This document shows, piece after piece, positions 2,837 through 54,688 of a stretch of DNA of 64,000 nt. The notes beneath the pieces were generated by a model. That model saw only the letters and a list, made by a program, of their open reading frames with translations. It searched no databases and was not told where the DNA came from. A program made the translations under genes and the position numbers. The DNA is from Bryum argenteum (lineage: Eukaryota; Streptophyta; Bryopsida; Bryales; Bryaceae): assembly GCA_037043015.1 (NCBI GenBank), contig CM073327.1:13932727-13996726 (forward strand). The letters are read 5' to 3'. Numbering within the stretch: position 1 is the first letter of the stretch; each line of letters opens with the position of its first letter.

Positions 2837-2842
2837 ATCACT

Positions 2843-4362: not shown

Positions 4363-4366
4363 TTAA

Positions 4367-18320: not shown

Positions 18321-18330
18321 GTGACCGGAC
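18321..18330. repeat. target-site duplication, left
   Basis: GTGACCGGAC here and again at 54,679-54,688, in direct orientation, outside the inverted ends. Nine to ten bp fits the 8-10 bp duplications made by MULE transposases. Confidence 0.85.
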
Positions 18331-18540
18331 GGACGTTGCTACTGTGTGAGCGTTGAGCGGTGAGCGGTGAGCGGTAAGATTTAGAATTTTTAGGACTGAG
18401 TTTGTATTTTTAGTAAAAAAATTTCTTAAAATAGATTTTTAAAAAAAATTGAGAATAATTTTCGTATATTCTTGGGAATATTTGAATATTCTAGACTTAT
18501 TACCGTGGATTTAATGACCCAAACCCGTGGAAATAAGGCT
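18331..18540 (+). repeat. left terminal inverted repeat
   Basis: Contains four 7-bp TGAGCGG-type units at 18,346-18,376, then an AT-rich part with TACCGTGGA (about 18,501) and CCGTGGA (about 18,526). The same blocks occur in the same order on the minus strand from 54,678 inward. Confidence 0.8.
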
Positions 18541-18796
18541 TAAATTCCCTGAATTTGTGAGACTTGAGCTACAAAACTAGACAGTAAATCACAAATTTTT
18601 AAATGTCAAGAGGTTTCTACGGTAATATTTCTAAGTGAATAGTACTCCGAGTTAGACAAATTGGCAAGGTTTGATGTACATGTAGGTACTGGTATAATTA
18701 TTTTTAATCAGTTGTGAAAAAATATCACATACAGTGTGGAGCACCCAATCATAGGACTAACATATAGCGTACGTAGATGAGGAGATATAAGGCATT

Positions 18797-21700
18797 CTAA
18801 TCTGTAGCATGGTCTAGGATTCCTCTCTCCAGAATCTTCTTCACCTCGTTAAAACTAAGAGTGGCCGCGTAGATGAAGAGGTCTGCATCCGGATCAAATT
18901 TGCAAACCAATACCGTGATGTAGTATAGGTGCTTGCAAGGTCGGTAAGGATCTCTCCGTCCTAACGAAGAGATTGTTTTCTTGAACACTGGGCATGAGCA
19001 ATCTGGGAATTTACTAATTGAAAGTCTATAAACTGCATCCGAATCCGACTCCAAGTCTATGATACACCCAAAACCAGGTTGCGGGATCATTGTTACCTTC
19101 AGAATTTTGGCCCGCATTGAGGTGGCAGACTCAATATTCTTCATGTGCTTTGAAGTCATAGCTGGAATGCGTTTCATGTTCTTCGATCTTCTTGACCTCG
19201 GGAACACGTCCGGTTTCTCCGGGACTGGAAAATGGGACAAGTCTCTTGGTGGGGCAGCATTATTGAAAGTACGGTTCGTAGGAAGCTGTTCTTTTTGTGG
19301 TAGTCGAAAGCCCGCATTCTCCAACGCCTCCATTTCATCTCGTGTGAGGTTAGTCCCTATCTTAACAGGCCATATTGTAGGAATAGGGGGTCTATCCTTG
19401 CTTACAGAGAATGGCTCAATCCACTTGCGACGATGACCCTTCACACACCTGTCAATATCATCCGCACAAAAAAAGAACTGATCAATTTTTCTTGGCCCCT
19501 CTTGAGGGCGTTGCCATACTCCGGTGTAAGTTGGAGCTGCGGTCGCCTTCCCCTTCTGAATAATTCGTGAGTCACATCTTTTTTTACTCTTTCGCATGAT
19601 ACCCCAACAAGCCTTGGCAGAATTCTCCCTCAAACGGGCAATGTGCCACAACCTCTCGTCTACTTTAGTCTCCTGAACAGCGGTCACACGATCAATACTA
19701 GGTCCAGCAAAAGTGAATGGTAATGTCGGTGGCTCCTCAAGTTCATCCTCTTCCTGGATAGTACTCAGATTTTCAGCCAAGGCTCGGGTAACCCTTCTCC
19801 CAATTCGGGGTCGTGAGTAGCTCACGGTGTCAGGTCTGTGCGTTTCATCATCAGCTCCAATCGGAACATCAGCCTTACGTTTCTTGGATCCGAACACCTC
19901 GGCCCCCTCAAGGTGGGCGTCCCGGGTACAAATCTTTTCAGCTCCTGGATAGTCAGACACTGCCTTTGTGAGGCCCGATGGATCGCCGGTACGTTGAGCT
20001 TTATGGGCAAGACGAAGTAAGAGTTCTTCGGATGTTGGTCCACTACCACCCTTGCCACCCCCGTTGAAGTCGTGGTAACCGACAACTTGGAGGAAAGCAC
20101 AAACATAATCATCAACAGCTGCAACGTACAAATCCCCACCCTTGTTGCCGGACGCTTGCAACCATTTGTTATGGATAGATTCCGCAAGGTTACACGAAGG
20201 CATCTCCGCCAGCTCCTCTGCAGAATATTTATTCTCCTGCAAGGTGCAATGACATTTGACTTAATAACAAAAAAAGTTGATCACGATATCCAAAGCGGGT
20301 TAGACTTTCGTCACCGAAAGTCTTATCTAAAAATAGAAGTTTTTGAAGTTTCAAATATTTTAAAATGTTGTTAATTTAATCAATAAAAAAGTGAATATCC
20401 TATAGTAAAAAAGTAAATAAACTTTACGGATTTGCTTGACATAAAAGCTCGGTACATAATTGCTACAATGGCCGCGGACTCACGAGTTCCATGAAGCCAC
20501 CCCATTGCCTGTATCGGAAGTGCCAGAATGCAAGCCAATGTTCGAGGTGACCTAATCCAACTTCGGAGGTGGCCTGCGCCGACGCCCACCATGCTCGGAT
20601 CGCCCAGTATCTTGTCTCCGCCTCAGCCATGGTGCGTGCATCTTTGTATTGCTTACAATGATGTCGATGTTGATCCTGCAGTTCGTGCACGATGTATTGT
20701 TTGGTGTGTTTCTCTAGGGATTGCGTCCAATGGAAGTAGCAGGTTCGTTCCCGGCCTTCCATGGGCACTTTAGGATCTCCGGAGCCGTAAATGATCCGCA
20801 CAGCGTTCCAGTTGGCTTGCGCACTGTCGGCCATGAACCCTTGAAACTGCGGCGCTTCCACTCCGTTCCTGCCCATGACGTGGTTTAGGTTCTTCCAGAA
20901 GACGATTTGAGCATCTCCGTCTTCAGACTGGAAATCACAGCATGCAATAGTTAGAATGCGACAGATTTTTGAGTCATATACATGGCACGCCATAGTGGTC
21001 CAATTCTTCACACGCTTGACATGGTCAAACATCATCCACGCGTGGGACAAGTCGCCTTGAGGCTGCATACGACGAACAAGGTCTACACCGCTTCCGGGGC
21101 CGACCTCGGACATCTTGAAAATGAAAACTTTGTCACTTTCATCTCCTTGGCCGGGGAACTGGTTACGTTGGATGTAAGCCCACTTGCTGAGGCCTCGAAG
21201 CTTGGTGATCCCATCAAGAACGCCGTATCTGCGCAAGTGCTTGAATGTGGTAATACGATTCCTGACACTCGGAGAGTTTAGCTCTTTACACTGATCGAAG
21301 ATAGGTTCTAGCTCCTGGAGGGTGAGCTTGGAGGTTACAGGGTCACCTTCTTCACGGAGAAGTAAGTTTCCGAGTAAGTCCTTGCTTGCCTCCATGACTA
21401 TTTTGGACGTGGTAGCTTGTGGGTTACGTTCTACGTGCTCCTCTATTAATTCATCAATTATTCTACCTGCACATCTATAGTCTCCGACCTTGACAGGATG
21501 TTTGTGCGTACCAATATGCACACACGCACGCTCTTGACTCTCGTCTCCGAATACGTAGAAAATTTTAGAAGGACATATAGCAACACAAACGGGAGGTTCT
21601 TTGCAGATCTTACAGACAAGTGTTGAAGAAGGAGGAGGCGCGTGGCCGACAGAGAAGGGGTCCTTGGTAAACCCCTCGAACTCCACCTCATTCACTTGTG

Positions 21701-22634
21701 CTCTGCGGTCAGGTTGTAGCAAGAAGCCGCACTTGTCATTGTGGCATTGAAGATGCCCTACACAGTTAGAGTAGCTGAAAGACAAACCGAGGTTGTTACT
21801 GATGTTAGTAATCATTGTCCTCGTCCACACATGGCCGTCGTATCTTTTGTCCATCCCTTCCATAGATTTGGCTACCTTCATAGCAGTATTTGGAAAAATG
21901 GGAGGGAGAACGTACAGGACATCACCATTGAAAGTAGGAGGCAGGAAAGATACGTTGTAAGTAGGAATGGAATGGAAATCAATTTTTTTGAGTATAGTTT
22001 TGTTGCGAGACATGCTACCTAGTCTTCGGAGCGAGGAAAGAATGTTTTTATGGTTTTCAACTTTGGAAGCCGGAAGTGAAACGGGGGTGGTTCTGAGACT
22101 GTGTTCGGAACTAGACAAGGGGGGAGGGAGACTTGATGCTAGACGATGGGACTGTATGGACGATTTTCTTTCATCGTCAGATGAATCAGAAATATCGATA
22201 CGGACTTCGAGTCCGGGTTCGACCTTGACACGAGGAAGAACTGGAACAACTGTGGAGATGGTAGAAGAACTACGAGGAGTGAGGAGGACGGTGGAGGCGT
22301 TCATGACGGACTCAGTCAAGCCGAACAGTCGATACTGTCCAGGCCGTAGCTTGTAGATTTTGCAGTTACTGTCTAGGGCGACTGGTCCAACTAGGACAGA
22401 GTAGTCGACAAGATTAGTGTTAGGATCTAAGACTTGATTCTCTAGCCAGAGAGAGGACTCATCAAACCCGAATCGAATGGCTAGCCAAGACGGTGTGACT
22501 TCTGCCACTCCATTGACCCCAGAAGGAATGCAGATGGGGGGACTTAAGTCTTCGGACCTGATCGCGATGACGTTGGTAGCTGGAGGCAGGGTAGCGGCAG
22601 ATGCCATGATAGATGCAAGCGAGGAAGAAAACAT
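18797..22634 (-). CDS. MULE-type transposase with SWIM zinc finger (two exons)
   Basis: Exon 1 runs 22,634-20,484 and exon 2 20,236-18,797, joined in phase across a roughly 250-bp intron (donor GTGAGT, acceptor cttgcag), giving about 1,200 residues. In order: a low-complexity N-terminus; Cys/His clusters (CHNDKC, CKICKEPPVC, then ACVHIGTHKHP) resembling the zinc-binding WRKY/GCM1-like DNA-binding region of MULE proteins; an RNase H-like core with AWMMFDHVK, then FMADSAQANWN, then CYFHWTQSL; the third acidic motif CNLAESIHNKW just after the splice junction; and a C-terminal SWIM finger (CSCPVF...PCKH). This is the order of MULE transposases. Both exons are open throughout, so the gene may be functional. 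The ATG at 22,634 is the first in the frame; 22,607 is an alternative. Confidence 0.85.
20237..20483 (-). other. intron of the transposase gene
   Basis: AT-rich, with GTGAGT at the 5' end and a pyrimidine-containing cttgcag at the 3' end. It splits the DDE core just before the third catalytic motif. Confidence 0.75.
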
Positions 22635-23158
22635 CGACAAGGTCAAGGAGAAAGAGAATCTGAGGTGCGTTTCGGAAGTTCAAATATGTGAATTTGGTTT
22701 AACGTATTTGAATACGTACTGAATACCTATTAAACGTAATTTTGTTTAGTACAACATACAGATACTAGACACTCTTAATCGTGAGCATGACAATTTGAAA
22801 ATACGTTACTTGCAGTACTTAAAATATCAAGACTGACATAATTGCCTTAAGTACTTAGAATTTAAATAGGAGATCTCTCAACAAAATAAGTATGTGTATC
22901 TGGTAAAGTGACGGCGGGCCGTCATTGTCAGAAATTTAGTTGGATAATAGATGCGTCCCAAAGTAAGCTTATTTCAAATTTGTCAGACACGGTCATAGCG
23001 GGATGTTAGGGATTACACGGTGGCTGATTAGGGTTTTACAGCCGCAAGAGATACTAATATATTGGAGTTGGAAATCATAGTTCGACCTCTTCATTTGCAC
23101 GGAGAACACTAGGACTCGTTAGGTGGATCGAGTGATAAGTTCTCTCATTGCAAGCGAC
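22635..23158. promoter_or_regulatory. divergent promoter region between transposase and acidic protein gene
   Basis: A 524-bp gap separates two genes transcribed outward. It contains several GTAC words, for example in aatacgtactgaatacc (22,713), and a telo-box-like gattagggttttaca at about 23,026, 130 bp before the plus-strand start. No firm TATA box is assigned. Confidence 0.4.
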
Positions 23159-23891
23159 ATGGACGAAAACGCTAGCGGTAGTGAGAGAGGAAAGGATATT
23201 GGTCAGAGAAAGAAGAAGCGCAGGGGTGGTATCAAGTTCAGTAATTCTAAAGCACAGAGGCGTAGTGCTTTGCGGAAGCGCGATGAGAAAAGCTTTAGCG
23301 GCGACGATTGGGACCTAGACGGATACGATATCTTGATAGACGATGATGTCCTACCGGTATTCAGGCGGACTATCAAGATACGATCGCTGAACCTCGACAC
23401 TGTGCCGGAGAGTGTCGCGGTGGACGAAGCTGAAGAAGACCAGGAGGAAGGGCGTAGCATGCAAATCAGGAAGTCTAGCGGGATTATTAGCGCCGACGGA
23501 GATGACGATGGAGGTGTATACTCTACATATGAGGTAAGGAAATTGTGTATGTTAAACCTGTGAATATTCGTATAGGTTAAACTATTATCGATTATGTATA
23601 TGGTTTAATATGAAGAATTCATTTCTTCAGGGCCGCAGAGGATCGAAAGAGGATGACAATCGATCAGGAGATGAAACACTAATTTCTGAGGAGAAAAGGG
23701 TCACCGATGTGGGCGACAGAGCAGGAGTCTCTTTTCAGCAGGAAACACATGATGATACTACGGATGGATTTGAGACAAGTGCTGAAGAGTTAGAAGAGGT
23801 ACATGAGAAACCCTACTTCCTGGTACATTGGGGGGACTTAGGGTTAATTAAGTATACAGTAAACGAGAGTACATTTTTCGGTATGAGTTAG
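23159..23891 (+). CDS. acidic/basic nuclear-like protein of unknown function
   Basis: Exon 1, 23,159-23,533, starts MDENASGSERG and has a basic cluster (RKKKRRGG) that could be a nuclear localisation signal, followed by acidic stretches (DDWDLDGYD and EAEEDQEEG). It ends at GAG|GTAAGG. The next exon starts after ttcttcag at 23,631 in the same phase (GRRGSKEDD...) and stays acidic to EELEE. It either splices at 23,798 (GAG|GTACAT) to a later exon or reads to the stop at 23,891. No known domain is recognised. The gene diverges from the transposase and may be its accessory partner; it may also be the 5' part of a longer plus-strand gene with exons near 24,961. Confidence 0.6.
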
Positions 23892-24129
23892 GTAGAACTT
23901 ATGATATTATAGAGTTCCATGACATATATGAATCCAAGACTAAATGCCAATTTAGTACTTGCGGGCGCCAAGTTTGTACTTGTAGGTCACAGTTAAAAAC
24001 ATGTGAGCCTTTAGTTTGTACTTTTAGAATTATAACGAATACAAATGATTTTGGTGTTATTTTACTTTGTGTGCATACTTATTACTGCGTGAAAGAATTA
24101 GATATATTTACGTAAATATGTAACACTGT

Positions 24130-24330
24130 TTTGACACGCTGGGTAGGGGTGGTCCGGGTAAGTACGGGGTGGGTAAGGGTAGGGTCAGGGCTAGTAGGAG
24201 AACTGGATAAGTCAGGGCAGGGTTAGTACGGGTAGGGCCGGGGATAGGGTGTGAATAGGGTAGGGCCTGGGCTGGGTAGGGCCTGGGCTGATAGGGCCGG
24301 GGATAGGGTCGACCAAGGCCAAAGTCTCGA
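24130..24330. repeat. G-rich minisatellite (GGGTAGGG-type)
   Basis: Irregular units of GGGTAGGGCCTGGGCT and related G-runs. Such G-runs could form G-quadruplex structures. The open frames through it (minus, proline-rich) follow from the composition. Confidence 0.6.
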
Positions 24331-24700
24331 TGGAGTCGATCCGGGGATCAACCCGGGTACCCGGAAAGGCCGGGCAAAACCATGCCTCCATGTATCCGGT
24401 CGACGCTGGCTCGGTGGGGGTTGATACCGCGGTGATGACCAGGATGGTACCTGTGTCCGATGAAGCGCTGAGCTCCGCCTCGCCCGCTCGAAGTCTCCGC
24501 TCGCCCGCTCGAAGTCTCCGCCCACCGATGCATTCTGCCCTGACAGCGCGATCGCCGAATGCTCTATTTCGATAGCTGTCCAGCGATGGCAGCCGGATCT
24601 CCCACTTGCACACCGGATTTCGTGCTGTCACAGAATCGTTTGATTGACCATTTCGGTAGTTTGTGGAGGCGTAGATGGAAGTAGGCAGATAGTACGACAA
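24331..24700. other. GC-rich segment, no gene supported
   Basis: GC-rich, with a 21-bp direct repeat (CTCGCCCGCTCGAAGTCTCCG, partly doubled near 24,480-24,520). Several overlapping open frames in both directions without recognisable domains. Confidence 0.4.
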
Positions 24701-24960
24701 TCGAAATTTATTAAACCCTAGCAGTTGAATCTTGTAGGCCGCCGCTTCGAGAATTGAGAGGTTGGTAGGGCATTATTTTTAGAAAAGATGAGGGATTTTG
24801 GCTGACAACAGAAGATTCGAGATGCCTGGACATTGACTTCTGACTTCACTTGAGAAATTGATGAAGGTTCTTACGCAGCCGTGTTTGGAATCGTCGTTGA
24901 TTTATTTCTGTATTTGGGAAATTGAAGGAGAGAGGTGCTCAGATCGAAGAAGAAGGAAAG

Positions 24961-25188
24961 ATGGCGGACGAAGTTTGCGAACAGATGGCACTACTGCGAG
25001 GGGTGGAGGAGGTCGTACTCGAAAGAGAGAAAGAAGTTGTGCTGGTACCAGGCGAGGAGCAAGTCGTGAACGATATCGACAATGTGCGTTGTAATTCATC
25101 AGAATCGAGTTTGTTCGCTTCTATTTACACAAGTGATCCATATTGGGGCCAAGCGATGAAGATTCAAGCGTACACGAGAAATTTTAAG
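24961..25188 (+). CDS. putative first exon, unknown acidic protein
   Basis: ATG at 24,961 opens MADEVCEQMALLRGVEEVVL and continues 76 codons to an in-phase donor (TTTTAAG|GTATGG). No domain is recognised; the glutamate/valine-rich stretch could be helical. The next exon is not clear because a satellite monomer and a direct repeat occupy 25,400-26,915. It may belong to the plus-strand gene continuing at 27,283. Confidence 0.4.
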
Positions 25189-25405
25189 GTATGGATTCCG
25201 GTAAACCCTACACCTACTTCGTAAAAAAATCAGCCTCTCTCTTGTTTACAATGGTTTGACTGTATTGCGGTGTGCCGAACAAGGTTTCCCTCAGGATACT
25301 AGGTCGGTGCTCTATACTTTGTTTTTTGCGGCTGCTGTCCTTCGCTACAGACCTCCTCATGAGATTCTCGACCTCAGCTCGCAAGAAGCAGGGAGAGAAG
25401 TCGGG

Positions 25406-25793
25406 TTGAGCGCCTTGCTTGCCTCTGCGGTGGCCCCTCGAACGCCTTGGCAATGAAGCACGAGTGCTGAGCCTGCTCATTCATCTGTTGGGGAAGCTCG
25501 TGGAGGTGGCCGTGGTGAGGGAATGGCGATGAAGCGGCAGCTGAGCCAGCCCCGCGCTGTCGATGCTCATCACCCCCGAGCTCTTGGTGATGGAATTGTG
25601 GGGTGCTGGATTCGTGATTCTTCGAAATGGCCGAACTAGTGTCAGACTTGCGTCGACGCAAGTCTGACACTAGTCCGACCATATCTTGTTTTTTTTTTCA
25701 ACTTTGTGCGCTTTCTGTCTTGCTAAAGTCTGGATGCAGCTTGTCGGGTTCGATTCCCCTTCCTTGATCAGCAGGGTGAGTGGTCGGGTTGAT
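25406..25793 (+). repeat. solitary monomer of the 380-bp palindromic satellite
   Basis: One unit, almost identical to the unit at about 40,600-40,985 (only a few differences in the compared 230 bp), lies 12 kb from the main array. It is bounded by gtcgggttga on both sides, the same unit phase at which the main array starts (37,561). It carries the palindrome with the 'cagact/agtctg' version of the arms. Confidence 0.85.
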
Positions 25794-26129
25794 GGGTATA
25801 AGCACACTAGGGTGGGTACATGTTCGACAAAACTCGAAGTATGTTAAGTACATCATTTTGGAAGAATGCTTTGGGATTTTCCCAAAATAGGGCTACCGTC
25901 GATTATTTCTGACAGATTGATCTTGGCCGTTGGAGGGTTGAGGGTCGTTGACTTGACAGTCTGACAGTGGGCTGGACATTAATGGCTCGGATTAGGGTTC
26001 AGGGCTTTTCCCGCGAGCTGTTTCGTCGTCTTGTTGTTTTTGGGGAGCTGCTTGGTGTTGTCGCAAGCTTTTTGCGCTGAACTCGCGTCTCATTCTTGCA
26101 CTCTGGCGCACGAATTGCAACATCCGTGG

Positions 26130-26915
26130 GCGGTTTTAGTGGGTGCGGGTAGGGCCATCACCTTCCGCATTTTGGGGAGGGGGTTTCGCGACTTGCTGTT
26201 TGAGTAGAATTTTTTTAGGGAGCTGTTGCTGGAGGGGGTTTCGCGAATGACTTGCTGTTGGAGTGTAGTTTGTTTAGGGAGCTGTTGGTGGAGTGGAGCT
26301 TGCGGTGTAGCTTGGGTGAACTCGTGCAACGGAGGAGTATTACGGGCACATCTGAGTGGCACAAGGTGAGCGCATCGACCGTGTTTTTAGGCAGCGTAGG
26401 GTTTAGAGAAATGTCGTTGAGGTTGTGCAAGGGTTCGCGGCGGCTTCTCGCTCAGGTTTTCTTTCATCTGCAAATGCTGATTCAATGCGTATCTGAAATG
26501 CGTATGCTCATCCAGTGAGTGAGCGGTTTTAGTGGGTGCGATTTAGGGCCGTCACCTTCCGCATTTTGGGGAGGGGGTTTCGCGACTTGCTGAACATTGG
26601 AGTAGAATTTTTTTAGGGAGCTGTTGCTGGAGGGGGTTTCGCGAACGACTTGCTGTTGGAGTGTAGTTTGTTTAGGGAGCTGTTGGTGGAGTGGAGCTTG
26701 CGGTGTAGCTTGGGTGAACTCGTGCAACGGAGGAGTATTACGGGCACATCTGAGTGGCACAAGGTGAGCGCATCGACCGTGTTTTTAGGCAGCGTAGGGT
26801 TTAGAGAAAAGTCGTTGAGGTTGTGCAAGGGTTCACGGAGGCTTCTCGCTATGGGGTTTTCTTTCATCTGCAAATGCTGAAATGCGTATGTGAAATGCGT
26901 ATGCTCATCCAGTGA
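26130..26915. repeat. direct duplication, 393-bp period
   Basis: Two copies, about 26,130-26,520 and 26,523-26,915, starting GCGGTTTTAGTGGGTGCG and ending near ATGCTCATCCAGTGAG. They differ by scattered substitutions and small indels. Contains telo-box-like GTAGGGTTTAGAG in each copy. Long open frames in both directions are duplicated with it; none is a recognised protein. Confidence 0.85.
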
Positions 26916-27282
26916 GCGCAAAACCCTAAGCCCTACATTCCCCACAGCTAACTTGGGTCTTTGTGTGCGGCGATCTGCATTTGTAAGGTGACGGCCAAAA
27001 TCGAGCCATTGAAGCTCAAACTTGACTTCCACGGCCAAAATCGAGTCTGAAGCTCCAACTTCGACGGCCAATACTGAGCTGCTCCAACTTCCTGATTCTG
27101 CTGGTGCTAAGTAAGTGAGTAGATCTTGATTCTAGGTAGAGGTTGCGATTATTGTGAGATGGTGTGGTTGATTGGCTTCTGACTCCCCCGGCTGGTTGTT
27201 TGTTGAATAGATGTTAGCATTTTCACGGATTCTTACGAACTGAGCAAAGCTGTGTGTGTTGGGTTTTGGGTGGGGTTTAGGG

Positions 27283-27588
27283 ATGGTGAAGAAGGAGAAA
27301 AAACCTTCTGTTGTGGTTGACGATGAAACAGACCCACCCCTTCTCACTGTGGACGAAGTAGATGAGAAAATAGCAATTTTGCGTAGAGGTGCCCCTCCTC
27401 CTGCAGTGTCTTTCGAGGAATTTAGAGATAGGTTTGGATTGAACGGGACGGGGATCAATCCCCACAAATCCAAGGATACTACACAGATCCTCCAAACCGA
27501 TCTAATCACGTTTGAGGCGGCGGCGAGGGAAATCAGGGTTCTGGTTTGGAGATTTGAAAGACGCAAAGGTGAAGTCCGCCATAGCTAG
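27283..27588 (+). CDS. N-terminal segment of the RING-like protein gene
   Basis: ATG at 27,283 opens MVKKEKKPSVVVDDETDPPL and runs 101 codons to a stop at 27,588. It contains an acidic/hydrophobic stretch (LTVDEVDEKIAILRRG) and EEFRDRFGL. Its 3' end overlaps the start of the long frame at 27,512-28,741 in a different frame, so the two are either separate, or one gene with a short intron or a frame change between about 27,510 and 27,560. Telo-box-like motifs (AAAACCCTAAGCC near 26,929) lie upstream. Confidence 0.5.
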   Translation: MVKKEKKPSVVVDDETDPPLLTVDEVDEKIAILRRGAPPPAVSFEEFRDRFGLNGTGINPHKSKDTTQILQTDLITFEAAAREIRVLVWRFERRKGEVRHS

Positions 27589-28741
27589 ACTGTACCCCAT
27601 AGTCTACCAGAAACCTTGTGTCGTAAAAACAAAACTGATAGGTAAAGAATTCGCAATCGGAATTGTAGCCGATGTAGTGAAGGGTTTAGATGTCGATTGG
27701 GCATCTTATGCTCACATCACGAATCGAAACCAGCGCAGCGCGTGGCAGAAAAAGATGAAGGGCTGCTTGGAGATGAAAGCAGTCTTGACTGAAAAAAGTA
27801 TGAGTGAAATTTTGGAGGAAGAAGACATGAAGACTTTGATGCAAGGTGACGGGCTTGTGAAGGCAGAGCCAGGTGATCGGCCATGCGGAGGGGTAGACTC
27901 TAGACAGCCCGAACAGAGCTCTTCATGGATAGAGAAGAAGAAACGAGAAACCCAAGACCTTCAGCGGGTGATCGAGTTGGAGTTGCAGGGTGTCAAGATC
28001 GACATACAATCGACTCTGAAAGAGAAGAAAGGGATGGACTCTAAGGTGGAGGGTGTTCGAGTAATGCTGGAGTCGATGAAGGCAACGTGCGAGGGCTTCA
28101 AGTTGAAAATGCAGAATTGTGAGGAGGGGGAAGATCAAAAGAAGATGCAGATGACGCTGGACTTCTACGAGGAAACTTTCAAGAGGACAGAAGGTGAATA
28201 CGATGCGTTTGTTGCTGAGCAGGTATTCCAAGATGCTGTGCATGAGAAATTGGTGCGTAGGGAGGCATTTCTGTGCGGACAGCAGTCTATGCTGGAGAAA
28301 CAACTGTCCAGTTTGCGAGGTGGACGGCCTGGCTTCGCTTTGCACCCCCACCCCATGTGCAACTCAATGGGCATGAAGGAAATGGAAATAGATTTTGTCA
28401 AACTAACTAACTGCGTTTTGTGTGATTCCAAGTTTTTCTATAATGACATTATAGTCTGTAGTTGCAGGCATGTTTATCACCCATGGTGTGCTGTGTCGTG
28501 GTTTAGCACATCAGTGAAGTGTGTAGAAAAGGATTGTTCAGTAGTCCACCCAGACTGGTTCAAGAGTTTCGGCTTTGGGGACCAGCCAACCAGTCTTGAA
28601 GAGAAGGCAGAGGAGCTAGAGTGCGAAGAAACGAGAAATTTTGTTATCTCCGAAAGAATAGCTGCTGCGAAGCGGACTGGTGTAGACATTGGTATGACCC
28701 CCTTCACCCATGTGCGTTCATTGCAGTGTGATTTGCCTTAG
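27512..28741 (+). CDS. coiled-coil protein with C-terminal RING-like zinc finger
   Basis: An open frame of about 409 codons ending with TAG at 28,739. Early residues (DLKDAKVKSAIARLYPIVYQ) may be a helical domain. Residues about 140-265 are strongly charged with heptad-like leucines (RVIELELQGVKIDIQST and following), a likely coiled coil. At about residues 300-345 a Cys/His cluster reads CVLC, then VCSCRHVYHPWCAVSWF, then KCVEKDC, spaced like a RING-H2 or related treble-clef finger. A RING would suggest E3 ubiquitin ligase activity, but the spacing is non-standard and this is an inference. The true start is uncertain, since the frame begins inside the preceding segment. Confidence 0.6.
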   Translation: MRRRRGKSGFWFGDLKDAKVKSAIARLYPIVYQKPCVVKTKLIGKEFAIGIVADVVKGLDVDWASYAHITNRNQRSAWQKKMKGCLEMKAVLTEKSMSEILEEEDMKTLMQGDGLVKAEPGDRPCGGVDSRQPEQSSSWIEKKKRETQDLQRVIELELQGVKIDIQSTLKEKKGMDSKVEGVRVMLESMKATCEGFKLKMQNCEEGEDQKKMQMTLDFYEETFKRTEGEYDAFVAEQVFQDAVHEKLVRREAFLCGQQSMLEKQLSSLRGGRPGFALHPHPMCNSMGMKEMEIDFVKLTNCVLCDSKFFYNDIIVCSCRHVYHPWCAVSWFSTSVKCVEKDCSVVHPDWFKSFGFGDQPTSLEEKAEELECEETRNFVISERIAAAKRTGVDIGMTPFTHVRSLQCDLP

Positions 28742-30660: not shown

Positions 30661-30749
30661 GTATATTTTTATTCTGGGTATATGCTAACATATTTTTGGG
30701 AAATTTCCAGTCGATCAACATCCCCATTGTCGCAGGAGATAGGTAGCCT

Positions 30750-40500: not shown

Positions 40501-41273
40501 TTTTTTCAACTTTGTGCGCTTTCTATCTTGCTAAAGTCTGGATGCAGCTTGTCGGGTTCGATTCCCCTTCCTTGATCAGCAGGGTGAGTGGTCGGGTTGA
40601 TCGGCTTGCTTGCCTCTGCGGTGGCCCCTCGAACGCCTTGGCGATGAAGCACGAGTGCTGAGCCTGCTCATTCATCTGTTGGGGAAGCTCGTGGAGGTGG
40701 CCGTGGTGAGGGAATGGCGATGAAGCGGCAGCTGAGCCAGCCCCGCGCTGTCGATGCTCATCACCCCCGAGCTCTTGGTGATGGAATTGTGGGGTGCTGG
40801 ATTCGTGATTTTTCGAAATGGCCGGACTAGTGTCAGACTTGCGTCGACGCAAGTCTGACACTAGTCCGACCATATCTTGTTTTTTTTTCAACTTTGTGCG
40901 CTTTCTGTCTTGCTAAAGTCTGGATGCAGCTTGTCGGGTTCAATTCCCCTTCCTTGATCAGCAGGGTGAGTGGTCGGGTTGATCGGCTTGCTTGCCTCTA
41001 CGGTGGCCCCTCGAACGCCTTGGCGATGAAGCACGAGTGCTGAGCCTGCTCATTCATCTGTTGGGGAAGCTCGTGGAGGTGGCCGTGGTGAGGGAATGGC
41101 GATGAAGCGGCAGCTGAGCCAGCCCCCCGCTGTCGATGCTCATCACCCCCGAGCTCTTGGTGATGGAATTGTGGGGTGCTGGATTCGTGATTTTTCGAAA
41201 TGGCCGGACTAGTGTCAGACTTGCGTTGACGCAAGTCTGACACTAGTCCGACCATATCTTGTTTTTTTTTCAA
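37561..41273 (+). repeat. 380-bp palindromic satellite array, block 1 (about 10 units)
   Basis: Ten units with palindrome centres near 37,804, 38,177, 38,558, 38,938, 39,321, 39,698, 40,087, 40,461, 40,847 and 41,226. Each unit holds TGATCGGCTTGCTTGCCTC, a GC-rich part, AATTGTGGGGT, the 40-bp palindrome centred on GCGTCGACGC, the sequence CATATCTTG plus T8, and GGGTTCGATTCC. Frames remain open across units on the minus strand, but indels move them between frames from unit to unit, so this is not a conserved protein. Block starts at the TGATCGG phase and stops at TTTCAA, where a TIR element follows. Confidence 0.95.
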
Positions 41274-43202: not shown

Positions 43203-43404
43203 GTCGGACTAGTGTCGACTTGCGTCGACGCAAGTCCGACACTAGTCCGCCATTTCAAAATCACGAATCCAAAGACCCCACAATTCCATCACCAAGAGCT
43301 CGGGGTGATGAGCATCGACAATGGGGGGGCTCACCGCCGCTTCATCGCCATTCCCTCACCACGGCTTCCTCCACGAGCTTCCCCAACAGATGAATGAGCA
43401 GGCT
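43203..43404 (-). repeat. inverted satellite fragment
   Basis: About 200 bp of the satellite unit in reverse orientation, from the palindrome down to the 'gagcctgctcattc' part, between the TIR element and the probable LTR. Confidence 0.9.
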
Positions 43405-44726
43405 TGTCGCGGCCCTAATTACTCCCAACTCTTTTTCATCAAGTAAGCGTTACTTGGTAGCGGAATCACGACTTACTTTGTTGGTAGCAACCGGCCACAA
43501 CTTAGCTAACACTGCACATGCCAAGCACACACAATGTTAGCACTCTTTCTAGTCAAGGTGTCCAACCCACCTTGACTCCCCCAATTCATTACCCGGAACC
43601 CGTAAACCGGAACTCCCACAAAGCACATGGGCATGCCACTTGGTGGCACGGGGCGGCCTTCCACACATGTCCAAGCTCCCAAGGGTGGCACTACTCACCC
43701 CCGGAGCTAACCGCCCTTGCATATTGTCCAACTCCCCACTAGTCCCCTTCCATTCATGTCTACACTCTCCATTCGGGACATTACCGAAACCGCACTACTT
43801 TTCACGGGGACTAGTTTGGAGCGGGACACTTTTCCAACCCAATGTTTCGGGATGCACACCACAAGCATCCCATAGTGCCCAAGGTGCGGGAGTGAGGCTC
43901 CATCCCAAGTCTCACCCCTTAGAGCCACCCCGGCTCTCCTCGGCACCATGTGGAAGTGAGGAGGGAGACCACTCCTCCTCATAGTACTCTCTGGAGTCTT
44001 CGGTAGGCCCCCCCTTCTTGTGTTGAGGGGCCTTCCGTGACACACTTTTATTTTGGAAGACCACCCGTTTTTGCCTTAGCCTCAAAAACGGGTCGTATCT
44101 TCTTCTCGGGCTAACTTGTAGCTCAGTTATCCAAATGGGACGTGTGAGCCCATTTTCGACATCTACTCTTTGAGTAGATGTCGATAGACTCCTCACTTGT
44201 CCCAATCGGAGCTTCTATGTGGAAGCTATGCTCCCTTGAACATTCGGGAGTCCCGGGAGGCAGCAGTCCCGGAGTCCCGAAGTCCCGATGCTTTGGAGAG
44301 CCATATCTCCCAAAGCATTACTTTGCTCCTCACGAGCCTTAGCATTTTGGAAAGCTCTTGTCCAGAGCTTTCCAAAGACATGCAACATGCCGCCATCCAA
44401 GAAGGACGACATTTCGAGTCCCGAAAGGTAACACTCCCGAGTCCCGGAGTGTCCCGGAACGCGCTCCAACTTTGGAGAGCCATATCTCATGACTCACAAC
44501 TCCAAATCGCGCGTTCTTTGGACCTATGGGTGCGTGCTTGAACAAGGTTTCCAACCATGTAAAGCACACCACCAAGTTCGTCCCGAGCACGACGCCATTG
44601 CGTGCTTGTTTGCTCGGGACTCCCCTTAGTCACTTCACCTTGTCTCATGCCAAGCCCGGGACGTCACTCCCGGGGTCCTCTTGGCTCACCACGGTGTTCG
44701 GGCATCCTTTTGAAAGGGATGTGACA
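43405..44726. mobile_element. probable solo LTR (about 1.32 kb), Ty3/Gypsy-like
   Basis: Begins TGTCGCGGCCC and ends GATGTGACA, giving TG...CA ends with the TGTC/GACA inverted tips common to plant LTRs. Flanking pentamers AGGCT and AGTCT are similar but not identical. No internal domain, gag or pol sequence is present, so only a solitary LTR is likely. Internally GC-rich with CCCGGAGTCCCGAAGTCCCG-type short repeats. Confidence 0.55.
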
Positions 44727-47700
44727 AGTCTGGATGCAGCTTGTCGGGTTCCATTCAACTTCCTTGATCAGCAGGGTGAGTGGTCGGGTTGATCGGCTTG
44801 CTTGCCCCTGCGGTGGCCCCTCGAACGCCTTGACGATGAAGTACGAGTGCTGAGCCTGCTCATTCATTTCTTGGAGAAGCTCGTGGAGGTGGCCGTGGTC
44901 AGGGAATGGCGATGAAGCGGGAGCTGAGCCAGCCCCCCGCTGTCGATGCTCATCACCCCCGAGCTCTTGGTGATGGAATTGTGGGGTGCTGGATTCGTGA
45001 TTTTTCGAAATGGCCGGACTAGTGTCGGACTTGCGTCGGACGCAAGTCCGACACTAGTCCGACCATATCTTGTTTTTTTTTCAACTTTGTGCGCTTTCTA
45101 TCTTGCTAAAGTCCGGATGCGCTTGTCGGGTTCGATTCCCCTTCCTTGATCGCGGGGTGAGTGGTCGGGTTGATCGGCTTGCTTGCCTCTACGGTGGCCC
45201 CTCGAACGCCTTGGCGATGAAGCACGAGCGCCGAGCCTGCTCATTCATCTCTTATGGAAGCTCGTGGAGGTGGCCGTGGTGAGGAATGGCGATGAAGCGG
45301 CGGTGAGCCAGCCCAGCGGCCATCGATGCTCATCACCCCGAGCTCTTGGTGATGGAATTGTAGGGTCTTGGATTCGTGATTTTTTCGAAATGGCGGACTA
45401 GTGTCGATTTGCGTCGACGCAAGTCCGACACTAGTCCGACCATATCTTGTTTTTTTTTCAACTTTGTGCGCTTTCTATCTTGCTAAAGTCCGGATGCGCT
45501 TTGTCGGGTTCGATTCCCCTTCCTTGATCGGCCAGGTGAGTGGTCGGGTTGATCGGCTTGCTTGCCTCTACGGTGGCCCCTCGAACGCCTTGGCGAAGAA
45601 GCACGAGTCTTGAGCCCGCTCATTCATCCGTTGGGAAGCTCGTGGAGGTGGCCGTGGTCGGGAATGGCGATGAAGGGGGAGCCGAGCCACCCCCATTGCC
45701 GATGCTCATCACCCCGAGCTCTTGGTTATGGAATTGTGGGGTCTTTGGATTCCCGATTTTCAAAATGGCGGACTAGTGTCGGACTTGCGTCGACGCAAGT
45801 CCGACACTAGTCCGACCATATCTTGTTTTTTTTTCAACTTTGTGCGCTTTCTATCTTGCTAAAGTCCGGATGCGACTTGTCGGGTTCAATTCCCCTTCCT
45901 TGATCGGCGGGGTGAGTGGTCGGGTTGATCGGCTTGCTTGCCTCTACGGTGGCCCCCCTCGAACGCCTTGGCAATGAAGCACGAGTCTTGAGCCTGCTCA
46001 TTCATCTGTTGGGGAAGCTCGTGGAGGTGGCCGTGGTCGGGAATGGCGATGAAGGGGAGCCGAGCCACCCCCATTGTCGATGCTCATCACCCCGAGCTCT
46101 TGGTGATGGAATTGTGGGGTCTTTGGATTCGTGATTTTTCGAAATGGCGGACTAGTGTCGGACTTGCGTCGACGCAAGTCCGACACTAGTCCGACCATAT
46201 CTTGTTTTTTTTTCAATTTTGTGCGCTTTCTATCTTGCTAAAGTCCGGATGCGACTTTGTCGGGTTCGATTCCCCTTCCTTGATCGGCAGGTGAGTGGTC
46301 GGGTTGATCGGCTTGCTTGCCTCTACGGTGGCCCCTCGAACGCCTTGGCGATGAAGTACGAGTCTTGAGCCTGCTCATTCATTTCTTGAGAAGCTCGTGG
46401 AGGTGGCCGTGGTGAGGGAATGGCGATGAAGCGGGAGCCGAGCCACCCCATTGTCGATGCTCATCACCGCCGAGCTCTTGGTGATGGAATTGTGGGGTCT
46501 TTGGATTCGTGATTTTTCGAAATGGCGGACTAGTGTCGGACTTGCGTCGACGCAAGTCCGACACTAGTCCGACCATATCTTGTTTTTTTTTCAACTTTGT
46601 GCGCTTTCTATCTTGCTAAAGTCCGGATGCGGCTTGTCGGGTTCGATTCCCCTTCCTTGATCGGCGGGGTGAGTGGTCGGGTTGATCGGCTTGCTTGCCT
46701 CGCGGTGGCCCCTCGAACGCCTTTGCGATGAAGTACGAGTCTTTGAGCCCGCTCATTCATTTCTTGGAGAAGCTCGTGGAGGTGGCCGTGGTGAGGGAAT
46801 GGCGATGAAGCGGGAGGCCGAGCCACCCCCATTGTCGATGCTCATCACCGCCGAGCTCTTGGTGATGGAATTGTGGGGTCTTTGGATTCGTGATTTTTTC
46901 GAATGGCGGACTAGTGTCGGACTTGCGTCGACGCAAGTCCGACACTAGTCCGACCATATCTTGTTTTTTTTTCAACTTTGTGCGCTTTCTATCTTGCTAA
47001 AGTCCGGATGCGGCTTGTCGGGTTCGATTCCCCTTCCTTGATCGCGGGGTGAGTGGTCGGGTTGATCGGCTTGCTTGCCTCTGCGGTGGCCCCTCGAACG
47101 CCTTTGCGATGAAGTACGAGTCTTGAGCCCGCTCATTCATTTCTTGAGAAGCTCGTGGAGGTGGCCGTGGTGAGGAATGGCGATGAAGCGGGAGCCGAGC
47201 CACCCCATTGTCGATGCTCATCACCCCGAGCTCTTGGTGATGGAATTGTGGGGTCTTTGGATTCGTGATTTTTCGAAATGGCGGACTAGTGTCGACTTGC
47301 GTCGACGCAAGTCCGACACTAGTCCGACCATATCTTGTTTTTTTTTTTTCAATTTTGTGCGCTTTCTATCTTGCTAAAAGTCCGGATGCGACTTGTCGGG
47401 TTCGATTCCCCTTCCTTGATCGCCAGGGGTGAGGGTCGGGTTGATCGGCTTGCTTGCCTCTCGCGGTGGCCCCTCGAACGCCTTGGCGATGAAGCACGAG
47501 TGCCGAGCCGACTCATTCATTTCTTGGAGAAGCTCGTGGAGGTGGCCGTGGTCGGGGAATGGCGATGAAGCGGAGAGCCGAGCCACCCCATTGCCGATGC
47601 TCATCACCCCGAGCTCTTGGTGATGGAATTGTGGGGTCTTTGGATTCGTGATTTTTGAAATGGCGGACTAGTGTCGGACTTGCGTCGACGCAAGTCCGAC

Positions 47701-48717
47701 ACTAGTCCGACCATATCTTGTTTTTTCAATTTTGTGCGCTTTCTATCTTGCTAAAGTCCGGATGCGACTTGTCGGGTTCGATTCCCCTTCCTTGATCGCC
47801 AGGGTGAGTGGTCGGGTTGATCGGCTTGCTTGCCTCTACGGTGGCCCCTCGAACGCCTTGGCAATGAAGCACGAGTCTTGAGCCCGCTCATTCATCCGTT
47901 GGGGAAGCTCGTGGAGGTGGCCGTGGTGAGGGAATCGCGATGAAGGGGGAGGCCGAGCCACCCCATTGCGATGCTCATCACCGCCGAGCTCTTGGTGATG
48001 GAATTGTGGGGTGCTAGATTCGTGATTTTTTCGAAATGGCGGACTAGTGTCGACTTGCGTCGACGCAAGTCCGACACTAGTCCGACCATATCTTGTTTTT
48101 TTTTCAACTTTGTGCGCTTTCTATCTTGCTAAAGTCCGGATGCGGCTTGTCGGGTTGATTCCCCTTCCTTGATCGCCAGGGGTGAGTGGTCGGGTTGATC
48201 GGCTTGCTTGCCTCTACGGTGGCCCCTCGAACGCCTTGGCGATGAAGCACGAGTCCGAGCCCGCTCATTCATCTGTTGGGAAGCTCGTGGAGGTGGCCGT
48301 GGTCGGGGAATGGCGATGAAGCGGCAATGAGCCACCCCATTGTCGATGCTCATCACCCCCGAGCTCTTGGTGATGGAATTGTGGGTCTTTGGATTCCGAT
48401 TTTTCGAAATGGCGGACTAGTGTCGGACTTGCGTCGACGCAAGTCCGACACTAGTCCGACCATATCTTGTTTTTTTTTCAACTTTGTGCGCTTTGTCTTG
48501 CTAAAAGTCCGGATGCGGCTTGTCGGGTTTGATTCCCCTTCCTTGATCAGCAGGGTGAGTGGTCGGGTTGATCGGCTTGCTTGCCTCTGCGGTGGCCCCT
48601 CGAACGCCTTGGCGATGAAGCACGAGTGCTGAGCCTGCTCATTCATCTGTTGGGGAAGCTCGTGGAGGTGGCCGTGGTGAGGGAATGGCGATGAAGCGGG
48701 AGCTGAGCCAGCCCGAT
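44727..48717 (+). repeat. 380-bp palindromic satellite array, block 2 (about 10 units)
   Basis: Ten units with palindrome centres near 45,034, 45,414, 45,790, 46,169, 46,548, 46,928, 47,301, 47,687, 48,061 and 48,435, in the same orientation as block 1. It restarts only 25 bp of unit sequence after the point where block 1 stops, so the two blocks were one array of about 20 units before the interruption. Ends at CTGAGCCAGCCC. Confidence 0.95.
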
Positions 48718-49258: not shown

Positions 49259-49398
49259 ATGAATGCTTAGAGTTCATGAAATACATGCGACCCTTTTTAG
49301 TATGAGACTAATATATAAATCTAATGATATTTTATCTTCATTTTCATAATTACTTATTGCCCTATGTGCATTGTTGCACTTGTTTTTTGGATTGTCAG

Positions 49399-52300
49399 AT
49401 GATAGCATGTGAAGTGCTTGCCCTTCAAGATGGACTAGACGATTCCCTCACTCCAAACAAAATACCCATTTCTGCGCCCAATTCTGATGGTGAGAATCTT
49501 GGTGATGACACGATTCAGACATTACAACAAAATGTTGAAGGTGAAGGCAATGCTGTTTCAACTGACATCCATCTCGACACTGAAGATCTCCATCTACCGA
49601 GTGAAGACCATGACGGACTCCAATCTATCTCGGATGATGAAGAAACTACACTGCCTGGAGGTGTGAATGTTGGGATCATTCACATGCCTCAACATTTGCA
49701 GAACAAGGACCCTGACTGGAGTGCGAACGAGATGCGCATGCTTCACAAGAGTGATTCGATTGCGATCATCAACAGGTTACGCTACAAACCCGTTAAGAAG
49801 TCTCGTATGCTAATTCCACTTTGCCGCCTCGTTTGTTATCCGAAGGTTCGCCCGATCTCAGAACAAGACATCAGAAAACTCGAGAATGAGTTCAACAAAG
49901 GATACCGCGAAGGCGATCGGGTGATGTACGTGTCTCCCTTCGACAGGAAAGGCCGAGAGAAAATGGTTGACACTCAAGATGAACTTTGGAAGAACCCGCT
50001 TTGGGCAGCCGCGAATGAAGAGTTCGAGAGTACGTTGCGGTCTGATCCTGATCTCTGTAACCTTAGCGACAAGTATTTTTATGTCTACGAAGGTAACCAC
50101 CGTGTTACAGCCTGGATGCGCCATATCGAGAGGTATCACAAGAATGATCCCTCATGGTACATTTCGGTTGATTGCATCGTTCTCGATGCCCGTGGAGAGA
50201 GCAATCTCCTCCTCGATGCTATGAACGACATTAACTGGTAAGTGAATGTCGCATTTAGAAAAAATAATTTATTTTGTGATTTTATCATATACAACTTTTC
50301 TCAATTTTCATTCTCTGTTGTAGGTCCACTGAACATGATCACGTCGAAGACAGTTTGTGTGCGAAACTCCAGCGCATAAGAAAGTTCGGGAAGTTAAAAC
50401 TCGAGGATTTCAAGGACCTTATTTCCCCTGAAGATTACAGGATCTGTAAGAACGCCAAAGCAAAAAAGGAGACGTGGTATCCTATCACAATAGACGTTTT
50501 TGTAAAATTCCTATACGCGGTACGTTCATTTCATATGTGCTCGTCTCTTTTTCTTTAAATTTATTTAAAACAAATTCTGATTTCTGTTTCGGTTGTTATG
50601 TAGAGGAGGTTAGCAAAAAAATCCGACGATGCTGAAGCTACCTACTACGCCACGGTTCCAAAAGATAAACAAACTGGACCGGGAGTATGGAGTGCCATGG
50701 ATAACGCAATCAAGGCTGAAATCAAATTAATACGTGGCAAGAATTTCGACAAAATGGTCGCTGTGGCCAATATCAATCTCGGGAAAGTTTTTGCAAGAGA
50801 GGTATTGTTGGCTGGGTTCTTCGATTACTAACACTAAAACTGTACCAACGTTCTACTGCTCTAATCAAAACCGTGATTCTGTTGTACAGATTAATTCTCA
50901 TTACAGCCAGAACCTGAAACCCGATATGACAATCGATCGCTTACAAATGGTGGCCACTACCAATGTTCACTTCGATCACAAGGGAAAGTGGCTCCAATGG
51001 TGGAACTCATCAGACGAAGTTCGACGATCATTTCGCTTTCCAGAAGATCGTCCTATGAAAGATAAAGCTTTGGTTGCATTTCTACATCGTGCTTCTCTTT
51101 GGGCACATGTAACTTGCATTTTCGTTCCGTGATGACAGAATTTGAGTTCATATGTTATTTGAAATACTAACATGTTTCCTGTATTCTCAGCTTGAGCAAT
51201 CACTAGAAAGTGAATTGCAGAATTTAGTGGACAACGAGAACCTCAACATTGAGTGGTCTAGTGTTGTCCTAAAGCCAGCTGCGTACGTCGAGAAGTGGAG
51301 GTTACTCTTATGGGAGAAGGCATTCGGAAACTACCTCGATTCAAATGCCAGTCCGAAGTTCATTAAAGGCTCGGATCTTCGTAAAATTACTGGAGGCAAA
51401 GCTACAATTAAGCGGCTTATATTTCGGTGCGTATTCCTTATTTTATAAAATATTATAGAAAATGTTTCAACGTTTTCTATTTTCCCTATCTAACTTGTTT
51501 ACTTTCTTGTAGGTACTTAAAGCAAGAGCTCGTTGCTAAAGGAGCATTGCCTTCGTTCTCGATTCCCATGGAGTTCGAGGACGTTGCAGTGATGAATGAT
51601 CCCCGCAGCTTTTTCTCCTCAGCCCAACAAGAGCGGTTTACTAACTCCCAATTGACGACCGGTGGTTGGTTTCTTGAGTGCGACGACAACTACGTCCACA
51701 AGGAGGAGAAGCATCTTCTTCGAAATCTGGCTACAAACCCAGCTGACTCAACACCGATGGAGATTGACGACGATGACGATGACGACTTGTCCATTTTACC
51801 AGATGCACCAGATCCAATCTCCTCTCCTTCGTCACCAGTTGCAGTGCCCAAGTCTCATGCAACCAGGAAGCGACGCAATGCTGTTGCGGAACCTGTAGTC
51901 GATCTCGAGCAAGAATCCGAAGAAACTGCTCCCCTCCCAGATGACATTGCAGGGCCAGAAGATGCTGATCTGACTCAGGCTTCAGAGGGAGTGACAAACA
52001 ATGCAAATCGACGCAATGCAAGACTGACTCAGCTTTCTACAGGTGGACTTACGAATGCAGGGTCCCCTCCTCAATCGTTCACCGTGGACCACAACTCACA
52101 GCAGTCTCCGCGTCGCATCAGCCAGCCATTGTTTCCGAAACGCCCTCTTCCGAAACCCAATCACATTGGTAGCAGCTCATCGTCAAAAATTTCGGTGACT
52201 CTGCCAATGTATCTCGAGAAGGGCAACATTGGAGACTTGGTTCATCAGTCGTCGAAGACTGCAAAATGGGATTCGCAAATCCTCGATATCGTTGAGCACA

Positions 52301-53699
52301 TCAAGAAGGTATTGTTTCATACATTTGTCATTTATATTTTCCATATGTAAGTTGAGTACTTGTGAATCTATTAGCCAGTATCTAAATTTTCACTTCTATC
52401 TCAGATTGGCAAAGACCGTAAGTACCCGTGTTCAGCGATGGAGAATGAACCCAAGCATCCAGGAATTGATCTCATTTTTGCAGATGCTCCCGAAAATTTG
52501 CCTGTTCCGGTGTGTCTCCAACAAAATTCCATCCTGGAATCGGCGTGACAAAACCTACTTTGAGAGCCTCTTCGTGTTTGCCGCTTATCATTTGACGGAC
52601 GTTGGAGCCATACTTGATGCATCCAAAATGTCGTAGAATCGAGCGTACTCGATTCTCGAGTCCGCAACATATAGTTTTCGTCTGGTTCGAGACTGGTGGG
52701 GATATAATCCCCTTCCTATGGCCTCTACCTTACCCAAACCGAAAGAGGTACGTAACAGATTCCAATTTTAAATTTCACGATTCATGATCATTTCCGACTA
52801 TGCTTCTATGTTAACGTATTTTTACTTGTGTTTTGCAGACTCACTGCTTCCACATCAAAGTCTATGTTCGTAAAGAGTATGTTTCGAAGTTCCGGACTCG
52901 GCAAGTGGCACACGATACGGGGTGTGGCAATCGTGCACGATGAGGAAGACCACCTCTCAGAACTGCGCAGAGAAAGAAACATTACGTTATCGTCCGGACG
53001 GTACGCCGTGGCGTGGCTCACGAGAGAAGGACCCCTCCTTCATTCAGTGTTTCGTCGATTGTCTCACGGATGACGGAGGTATAGTCTTCGATTGGAGCGC
53101 TAGTACAGGTAATGTTTCCGTAAACACTACATTCGAGTTCGTTTATACACACTTCGCTTTTCTAACGTGGGCTTCTGTATTTGTAGGTGCATCTGTCATT
53201 GCTTGCGCGCGCTCCAACCGACACCTCATCGCCATGGAACCTGACGAAGAAATCTTTGATGGTGTGCTAGCTGATTACAAGAATGGTCCTCCCGGTGATG
53301 AAGAAAGTGGAGAATCTGCCCCTCCCGCGGATTATGACTCTGACAAACCGGTCGTGAAGAAGCCACGAAAGTTCATTGGTGCGTAATTCCCTCTTGTATT
53401 CTTTTTCTCGATTTTTTATTTAGCACTTACAAATCTGTTGGACTGACTTTCTTTGCAATTTTAGGATCGCAGGTCTGAAGGAGCGATTGACTCGCAACGC
53501 TCATCTCTACAAGAGCCCTCCATCAAAATTCACCCTACCATCGTACGCTAAGCGACTTGCTGAAGAGTTTGTTCAAGCTCCATCTCCCATTCTCTCTGAC
53601 ACTCCACGTCGACGTTATAGCAATAGTGTGCTTAAGTTTATAGACTTTGAGGCTGATCAGTGTGATCAGCACTTTAATGGTTCAACACCTTCTGCCTAG
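49399..53699 (+). CDS. ParB-like domain fused to degenerate N6-adenine DNA methyltransferase-like domain
   Basis: Exons by phase: 49,399-50,237; 50,324-50,519; 50,604-50,801; 50,890-51,108; 51,191-51,426; 51,513-52,308; 52,405-52,747; 52,839-53,108; 53,187-53,378; 53,473-53,699. The first exon ends with a ParB/sulfiredoxin-like segment: RPISEQDIRKLENEF, then YFYVYEGNHRVTAWMRHIER (compare the DGNHR motif), then YISVDCIVLD. Middle exons are helical, then acidic and disordered (MEIDDDDDDDL). Late exons have DLIFADAPENLP where beta-class methyltransferases have DPPY, and GGIVFDWSASTGASVIACAR then HLIAMEPDEEIFDGVL where they have the FxGxG SAM site. The order (motif IV before I) is that of the beta class. 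The DPPY aromatic is missing and the frame changes within the exons at 52,405-53,108, so catalysis is doubtful. ParB-methyltransferase fusions are known from phages and bacteria. Confidence 0.65.
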
Positions 53700-54499
53700 A
53701 GTGTGATTTGTTTTCTGATAGGTACTGGACATGGTACTAGAGTATTCGTTTACCTCGATCTATTACTGCTATAGCATGTATTTGTGTTTTTCAATATATA
53801 TGGTTTTATATATTTATTTATTGTGATTATCATTTATAGCTTAAGCTACACTAAGTGTTTCAAGTATTACTTTAAGTATCTCACTACAATGTAATCTAAA
53901 GCCATGCTTGCCTGTAATGAAGACGTCAGCCCTAATTTTGATGTAACTTCTTAAACTCCAATTTCGGTGCACCGGTGTATGTAAATGCTTAAGTTCTAAC
54001 CTAAATGCAGACTAAAAGTTTGAGAAGGTCTTTTTTTATTTTCATTGGAGTGATTGAATTTTGCCAATGTTGGTAGGGGCTATAGTCCAGTATTTGTATA
54101 GCTCAGGATAGCTGATTTAAGACGCAGTGCAACGCTCAAACGAGGCCGAGGAGAATCGAACTCGGGCCACTACAATGCCACGTGAATGTCTTTTCGTACA
54201 CCTTACAAGGAGACACGGGAAGACGACGTGTAGTGATAATTTTCAGATAATATATGCCGAAGCATTTACATATAATTCTAACAAGTGCAATACGCAATTG
54301 ATGACGTCAGCCCTAATTAGTCTCTAAAGCTTACTGTCGATAAATTAAACTTATTGATTACCTAAATGGATCATCCCAAATTTCGGTTTATATTTTGGAT
54401 ATGATTTGAATTGTGTTGGTTACACATGATGATGCTAGTCCATAATTCAATTAACTTTTATTTAAACTTACAAGTGTGGATAATTTTGAAATATTGTAT
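53700..54499. other. spacer between ParB-like gene and right terminal repeat
   Basis: AT-rich; no gene. A short GC-richer patch at 54,120-54,240 includes the complement of GAGTTCGATTCTC, a tRNA T-arm-like word, without a full tRNA fold. Confidence 0.5.
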
Positions 54500-54678
54500 G
54501 ACCTATGTCCACGGTTTTGGGTACTTTTATGCCTAAAAATGACCATTTCAAAAATTCTAAACCACCCATTCCACGGTAATAGGGCCATTAACTTTAAATT
54601 TTTTTTTTCCTTACCGCTCAAACTTTACCGCTCACCGCTCACCGCTCACCGCTCAACGCTCACACCGGTGGTTTCCCC
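54500..54678 (-). repeat. right terminal inverted repeat
   Basis: Complement of the left end: ACCGCTCACCGCTCACCGCT and neighbours at 54,625-54,664, with TCCACGGTAATAGG at 54,571 and TCCACGG at 54,509. One or two more 7-bp units than the left end. Confidence 0.8.
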
Positions 54679-54688
54679 GTGACCGGAC
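54679..54688. repeat. target-site duplication, right
   Basis: GTGACCGGAC, direct copy of 18,321-18,330. Confidence 0.85.

Follow-up and report, generated by a model that had tools for sequence, protein, structure and literature searches.

MULE target-site duplications span 8–11 bp and the terminal inverted repeats of these elements are commonly hundreds of bp long (PMC6446971). MuDR elements with SET genes have already been published, as have algal transposons with ParB-methyltransferase genes, and SET-carrying MuDR and HarbingerS families have been described in Phytophthora (Kojima and Jurka 2014, cited in PMC12730594). C5 cytosine methyltransferases are carried by some retrotransposons in dinoflagellates and charophytes (PMC5890265), and a bdelloid rotifer has a pair of enzymes, N4CMT and SETDB1, that form a loop between 4mC and H3K9 (PMC8885841). 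No report of a histone and a DNA writer gene of these two types in one Mutator-like element was found in the literature searched, which took in few subscription papers and no bioRxiv preprints.

The window analysed here is a stretch of 64,000 nucleotides from the moss Bryum argenteum. Positions 18331–54678 of this window are probably a single, very large terminal-inverted-repeat transposon of the Mutator-like type, inserted in one piece.

Ends, target duplication and empty site

The limits of the element were read directly from the sequence, with 36,348 bp lying between the two copies of a direct repeat. The target-site duplication, GTGACCGGAC, is found at 18321–18330 (+) and 54679–54688 (+), is perfect (10/10) and lies 13 bp outside the inverted-end core on either side. 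When all 40 × 40 offsets outside the end cores were compared, the only 8–12 bp words common to both flanks were GTGACCGGAC and words contained in it, placed symmetrically at offset 13/13. The left end (18331–18378, +) consists of 13 variable bp followed by a GTGTGAGCGT(TGAGCGG)3 core, while the right end (54614–54678, −) contains five TGAGCGG words, four of them adjacent, then the shared core and the outermost 13 variable bp. The cores form an inverted repeat of the type GTGTGAGCGT(TGAGCGG)n (18344–18378 against 54665–54631, 97% over 35 bp), and each begins 14 bp from its duplication. The direct repeat outside inverted (TGAGCGG)n ends, described in the initial annotation, is therefore borne out.

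In their outermost 13 bp the two ends do not resemble each other, and similarity past the core is marginal: bases 36–260 score 23 (shuffle maximum 24, with 0.4% of 500 shuffles as good) and bases 61–400 also score 23 (shuffle maximum 29, with 3.6% of 500 as good). The window contains 21 copies of TGAGCGG, where 4.8 would be expected; three are in the left end, five in the right, ten in the internal arrays and three elsewhere. In a self-comparison at E ≤ 1e-6, which disregarded matches of array to array, the left/right pair gave the only row involving the end core, and neither a further copy inside the element nor a third one was seen.

The element interrupts a 164-bp tandem repeat. The left part of the interrupted unit is at 18240–18330 (+), its final 10 bp being the duplication, and the right part, together with the next two units, is at 54689–55089 (+). 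ACCCTA anchors at 18240, 54762 and 54926 give a spacing of 90 + 74 = 164 bp over the joined flanks and again of 164 bp to the following unit. The earlier claim that removal of the element restores an exact 164-bp tandem repeat thus holds for the spacing, which is exact, but not for the sequence, which is diverged: 108 of 143 aligned bases are identical between the junction-spanning unit and the next one, in an alignment covering both sides of the junction, and 108 of 147 in the next pair of units. The junction unit scores 29 against the next unit, where the shuffle maximum is 25 in 1000 and random junctions reach at most 19.5 (0/1000 as good). Against the whole third unit its match is weak (15.5), near the mean of about 13 that shuffling gave for the other two pairs, the only ones shuffled; the left 250 bp score 31 against the first part of that unit (54853–55016), with 0/1000 shuffles as good. 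The flank-to-flank match was likewise equalled in none of 1000 dinucleotide shuffles. In 300-bp pieces, no part of the window matches the left flank piece better than the right flank does, and the best match of the right flank piece, after its neighbouring unit, is the left flank.

The lone pair of inverted cores, the symmetric 10-bp duplication, the restored 164-bp unit and the lack of any further end core seen inside make a one-piece insertion the best reading, and the earlier proposal that the whole 36.3 kb inserted as one unit is well supported by them. A DDE transposase, presumably the product of gene A (below) or a relative supplied from elsewhere, would have bound at the (TGAGCGG)n ends and moved the block as a whole into the diverged tandem repeat, making the 10-bp target duplication. 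The locus is also a clean case of a 36-kb insertion whose empty site can be checked from its own flanks.

The flanks are themselves duplicated. The left flank contains a large direct duplication (1–8141 and 11458–15986, 80–92% alike), and part of it (6470–9294) has an inverted copy beyond the element at 60530–56029 (about 79–88% alike), so that duplicated blocks in inverted orientation lie on both sides of the insertion. An F-box-like frame of 562 aa, named by eye, is found at 11372–13060 (−), with a partial duplicate at 549–986 (−); it had no Pfam match at E ≤ 0.01. This frame, the introns and the type of the SET domain would point to a host of the plant lineage.

Gene content and palindrome arrays

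The element was initially described as very large and as carrying several gene types, which is right, though about 7.7 kb of it consists of two tandem arrays. A SET domain lies at the 3′ end of its gene (31318–32276, +), in four exons (31318–31512, 31629–31855, 31968–32035 and 32120–32276) with GT-AG introns and a single open frame down to the stop. It matches Pfam SET over the whole model length (E = 6e-20) and its best relative in PDB is G9a/EHMT2 (E = 1.1e-32). The pre-SET cysteines, the SET core and the post-SET CxCGSxxC are all in one frame, with the start of the pre-SET approximate. The domain looks like that of a G9a/SUV39-class histone methyltransferase, and the protein may be near the plant SUVR proteins. 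These coordinates cover the domain only, and upstream exons would lie at 29.3–31.3 kb. A gene model with a RING-like finger (27283–28711, +; zf-RING_2 E = 0.00027, below the Pfam cut-off) could belong to the SET gene. Coding-like open frames without a recognised domain are present at 23123–25224 (+); a chromodomain guess for the 23.6–23.9 kb piece was dropped, as there was no Pfam match. A tandem duplication of about 395 bp, 94.5% alike, is found between genes at 26126–26916.

Gene D (49702–53699, +) looks like a gene for a DNA amino-methyltransferase with a ParB-like part. The ParB-like first part, at about 49.7–50.3 kb, matched phrog_1033 (E = 0.0026) and had no match in Pfam or NCBIfam. The C-terminal methyltransferase part, at about 52.4–53.3 kb, matched phrog_3008 (E = 2.3e-5), which places it with the AdoMet-binding N6_N4 methyltransferases, and Pfam N6_N4_Mtase below the gathering score (E = 0.0026). 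In a tblastn search the methylase part matched 98 phage records at E ≤ 1, and 17 of the best 20 of these are labelled DNA methylase or methyltransferase (best E among those 20, 1e-3). For the same piece, nothing in PDB matched above chance level (best E 0.17). Catalytic motif IV has a characteristic form in DNA amino-methyltransferases, and the residues DAPE (about 52.48 kb), picked out by eye through comparison with it, are a candidate for this motif. The apparent reading then changes frame and meets a stop near 52.5–52.64 kb, which may represent a small intron or damage, so that gene D is possibly interrupted.

Gene C (33132–36488, −; the ‘DGCAGQFK’ gene) encodes a ‘SDGCAGQFKGARPMYFV’ protein. 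This motif and its expected continuation are, we assume, those of transposon-type proteins. Downstream of SDGCAGQFKGARPMYFV the continuation is split over three frames, and gene C is therefore apparently decayed and frame-shifted. With an apparent frame shift in gene C and a possible break in gene D, this copy of the element is ageing; its transposase frames and its SET domain, by contrast, are open.

The two arrays lie between genes C and D. Array 1 (37566–41274, +) has a unit of about 382 bp repeated 9.8 times with 10 palindrome cores, and array 2 (44726–48714, +) a unit of about 378 bp repeated 10.6 times with nine cores; they have the same orientation and are 93% alike. An LTR-retrotransposon reading, which the shared orientation would allow, was rejected because the array edges differ in phase and have no matching TG...CA ends. 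The spacer (41275–44725, +) contains an inverted unit fragment (43202–43404) and a frame, at 42048–42980 (+), judged coiled-coil-like by eye, with weak coiled-coil-type rows (E 0.017–0.066) and no Pfam match at E ≤ 0.01. A single stray array unit of about 380 bp, with a 40-bp palindrome, is found at 25387–25796 (+).

A palindrome core is present in 21 units, 10 and nine in the arrays and two single. It is perfect over 46 bp in 10 of these, over 44 bp in one and over 40 bp in one; six have only a 20-bp perfect core and in three it is shorter than the 18 bp required for listing. Conservation within the unit peaks at the palindrome (97.5% compared with 89.6% outside); the palindrome's window is 8th among 334, and all seven higher windows overlap it. 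Counted by eye on the alignment, five of the 21 units have a paired change common to both arms, which may go back to a single event, and seven have lost one base from one arm, which speaks against strict selection for perfect palindromes. The word found at the transposon ends, TGAGCGG, also occurs in the palindrome arrays (10 of the window's 21 copies), where it could stem from one word amplified with the unit.

From the domain matches, the element appears to carry two gene types that write chromatin marks, one for a SET histone methyltransferase and one for a DNA amino-methyltransferase with a ParB-like part. It is possible, with the balance tilting against it, that the products of the SET gene and gene D act on the element's own chromatin, the ParB-like part guiding the DNA mark; the element would in this way tune its own silencing or mark its copies. 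A more specific version, in which self-recognition resembles that of a plasmid partition locus, is quite improbable: the ParB-like half would bind the array palindromes and spread or methylate, SET would add the histone mark, and the element would form its own chromatin domain. Nineteen of the 21 palindrome units lie in the two arrays neighbouring gene D, and the palindrome is perfect over 46 bp in 10 of the 21.

An explanation that has a chance only just short of even is that a smaller Mutator-like element has grown by nesting or capture. Only the transposase and the ends would then be its own, with SET, the ParB-methyltransferase, gene C and the arrays as passengers without a role. This competes with the functional proposal and not with the one-piece insertion. 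Gene C, which looks like a second transposon-type protein and which appears decayed, would fit such a history, as would the arrays with their stray unit, the introns of the SET gene (as expected from capture at the DNA level) and the possible break in gene D. Against it, terminal repeats of nested elements were not seen around the cargo, either among the repeats listed (20 of the 37 families of direct repeats, 25 of the 189 pairs of inverted ones) or in the self-comparison described above, and the SET frame stays open across its four exons. Observations on other transposons point both ways: nested insertions are present in most of the giant families of Ectocarpus, while ParB-methyltransferase genes recur in other transposons (PMC12477816).

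Transposase and superfamily

Whatever the history of the cargo, a one-piece insertion remains the preferred reading of the whole block. Gene A (18797–22634, −), which looks like a transposase gene, was modelled by script with exons 22634–20552 and 20217–18797; by eye, the true donor is probably nearer 20480. The transposase frames read open. By eye, these two long open frames contain DDE-like motifs (MMFDHVK, GFMADSAQANW and NLAESIHNKW) and the C-terminus has a SWIM-like CxC...CxH, for which Pfam SWIM gave E = 0.18, below the cut-off. A single-sequence AlphaFold prediction for gene A had a pLDDT of 31.0, and a second single sequence folded with AlphaFold gave 34.7. Comparison of the transposase core with PDB returned only chance-level rows (best E 0.09), and four Pfam scans matched neither a MULE nor any other transposase family profile. 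The end core had no matches in viral contigs, and searches there with protein pieces from genes A, C and D gave 12, 0 and 4 pattern matches, none of them confirmed, as expected for a eukaryotic element.

The label ‘MULE-like’ given in the initial annotation fits the perfect 10-bp duplication and the inverted ends; because no Pfam MULE model matched, it is from these features, and not from a profile, that we infer the superfamily. The 35-bp inverted core is shorter than the hundreds of bp common in MULEs (PMC6446971).

It is unlikely that this giant transposon, still inserted in one piece, belongs to another DDE superfamily (e.g. Sola1 or KDZ-like) and not to Mutator. Duplications of Sola1 and KDZ are shorter than 10 bp. 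The negative Pfam MULE scans would agree with such an assignment, as would the ParB-methyltransferase gene reported in Ectocarpus Sola1 (PMC12477816), but the duplication found here is within the MULE range of 8–11 bp (PMC6446971) and the C-terminus of gene A is SWIM-like to the extent described above. It is very improbable indeed that there is no transposon, and that the ends of two different small elements were brought together or a host segment rearranged, since the unlike outermost 13 bp, the marginal similarity past the core and the large inverted duplications in the flanks, which would suit that account, are set against a perfect symmetric 10-bp duplication, a restored 164-bp unit and the absence of a third end core from the self-comparison.

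Comparison with known systems

As a Mutator-like giant with two putative writer genes, the element has partial counterparts in several systems. The Pack-MULEs (PMC6431247) and KAONASHI (PMC13317346) are likewise of Mutator type with extra genes or gene pieces; unlike the present element, no Pack-MULE of the 2004 set exceeds 7 kb, and these hold gene fragments (PMC6431247). The VANDAL elements of Arabidopsis, with VANC, are also Mutator elements encoding their own epigenetic regulator, but VANC leads to loss of DNA methylation, whereas the genes found here look like writers (PMC5735166, PMC10398659, PMC13317346). The retrotransposons with C5 enzymes share with it a DNA methyltransferase gene on a mobile element, which here is a DNA transposon with an amino-type enzyme (PMC5890265). 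The MuDR and HarbingerS families of Phytophthora are DNA transposons with a SET histone methyltransferase gene, as here, although their host is an oomycete and the citing passage makes no mention of a ParB-methyltransferase (PMC12730594).

If other copies of the element carry both genes, one mobile element would hold the histone and the DNA halves of a chromatin-writing loop. This would allow a direct test of whether transposons write silencing marks, beyond merely escaping them, and would mean that ParB-methyltransferase accessory genes are present in a Mutator-like giant as well as in algal elements (PMC12477816). In the bdelloid rotifer an amino-type DNA methyltransferase similarly acts beside H3K9 methyltransferases at transposons, but N4CMT and SETDB1 are host genes, whereas here the two writer-like genes lie within one mobile element (PMC8885841). 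Sola1 of Ectocarpus is, like the present element, a large DNA transposon with a gene for a ParB-like protein and N4C/N6A-type methyltransferase beside the transposase; it is 21.5 kb long compared with 36.3 kb here (PMC12477816), and the element from Bryum argenteum has a 10-bp duplication and, in addition, a SET gene and palindrome arrays.
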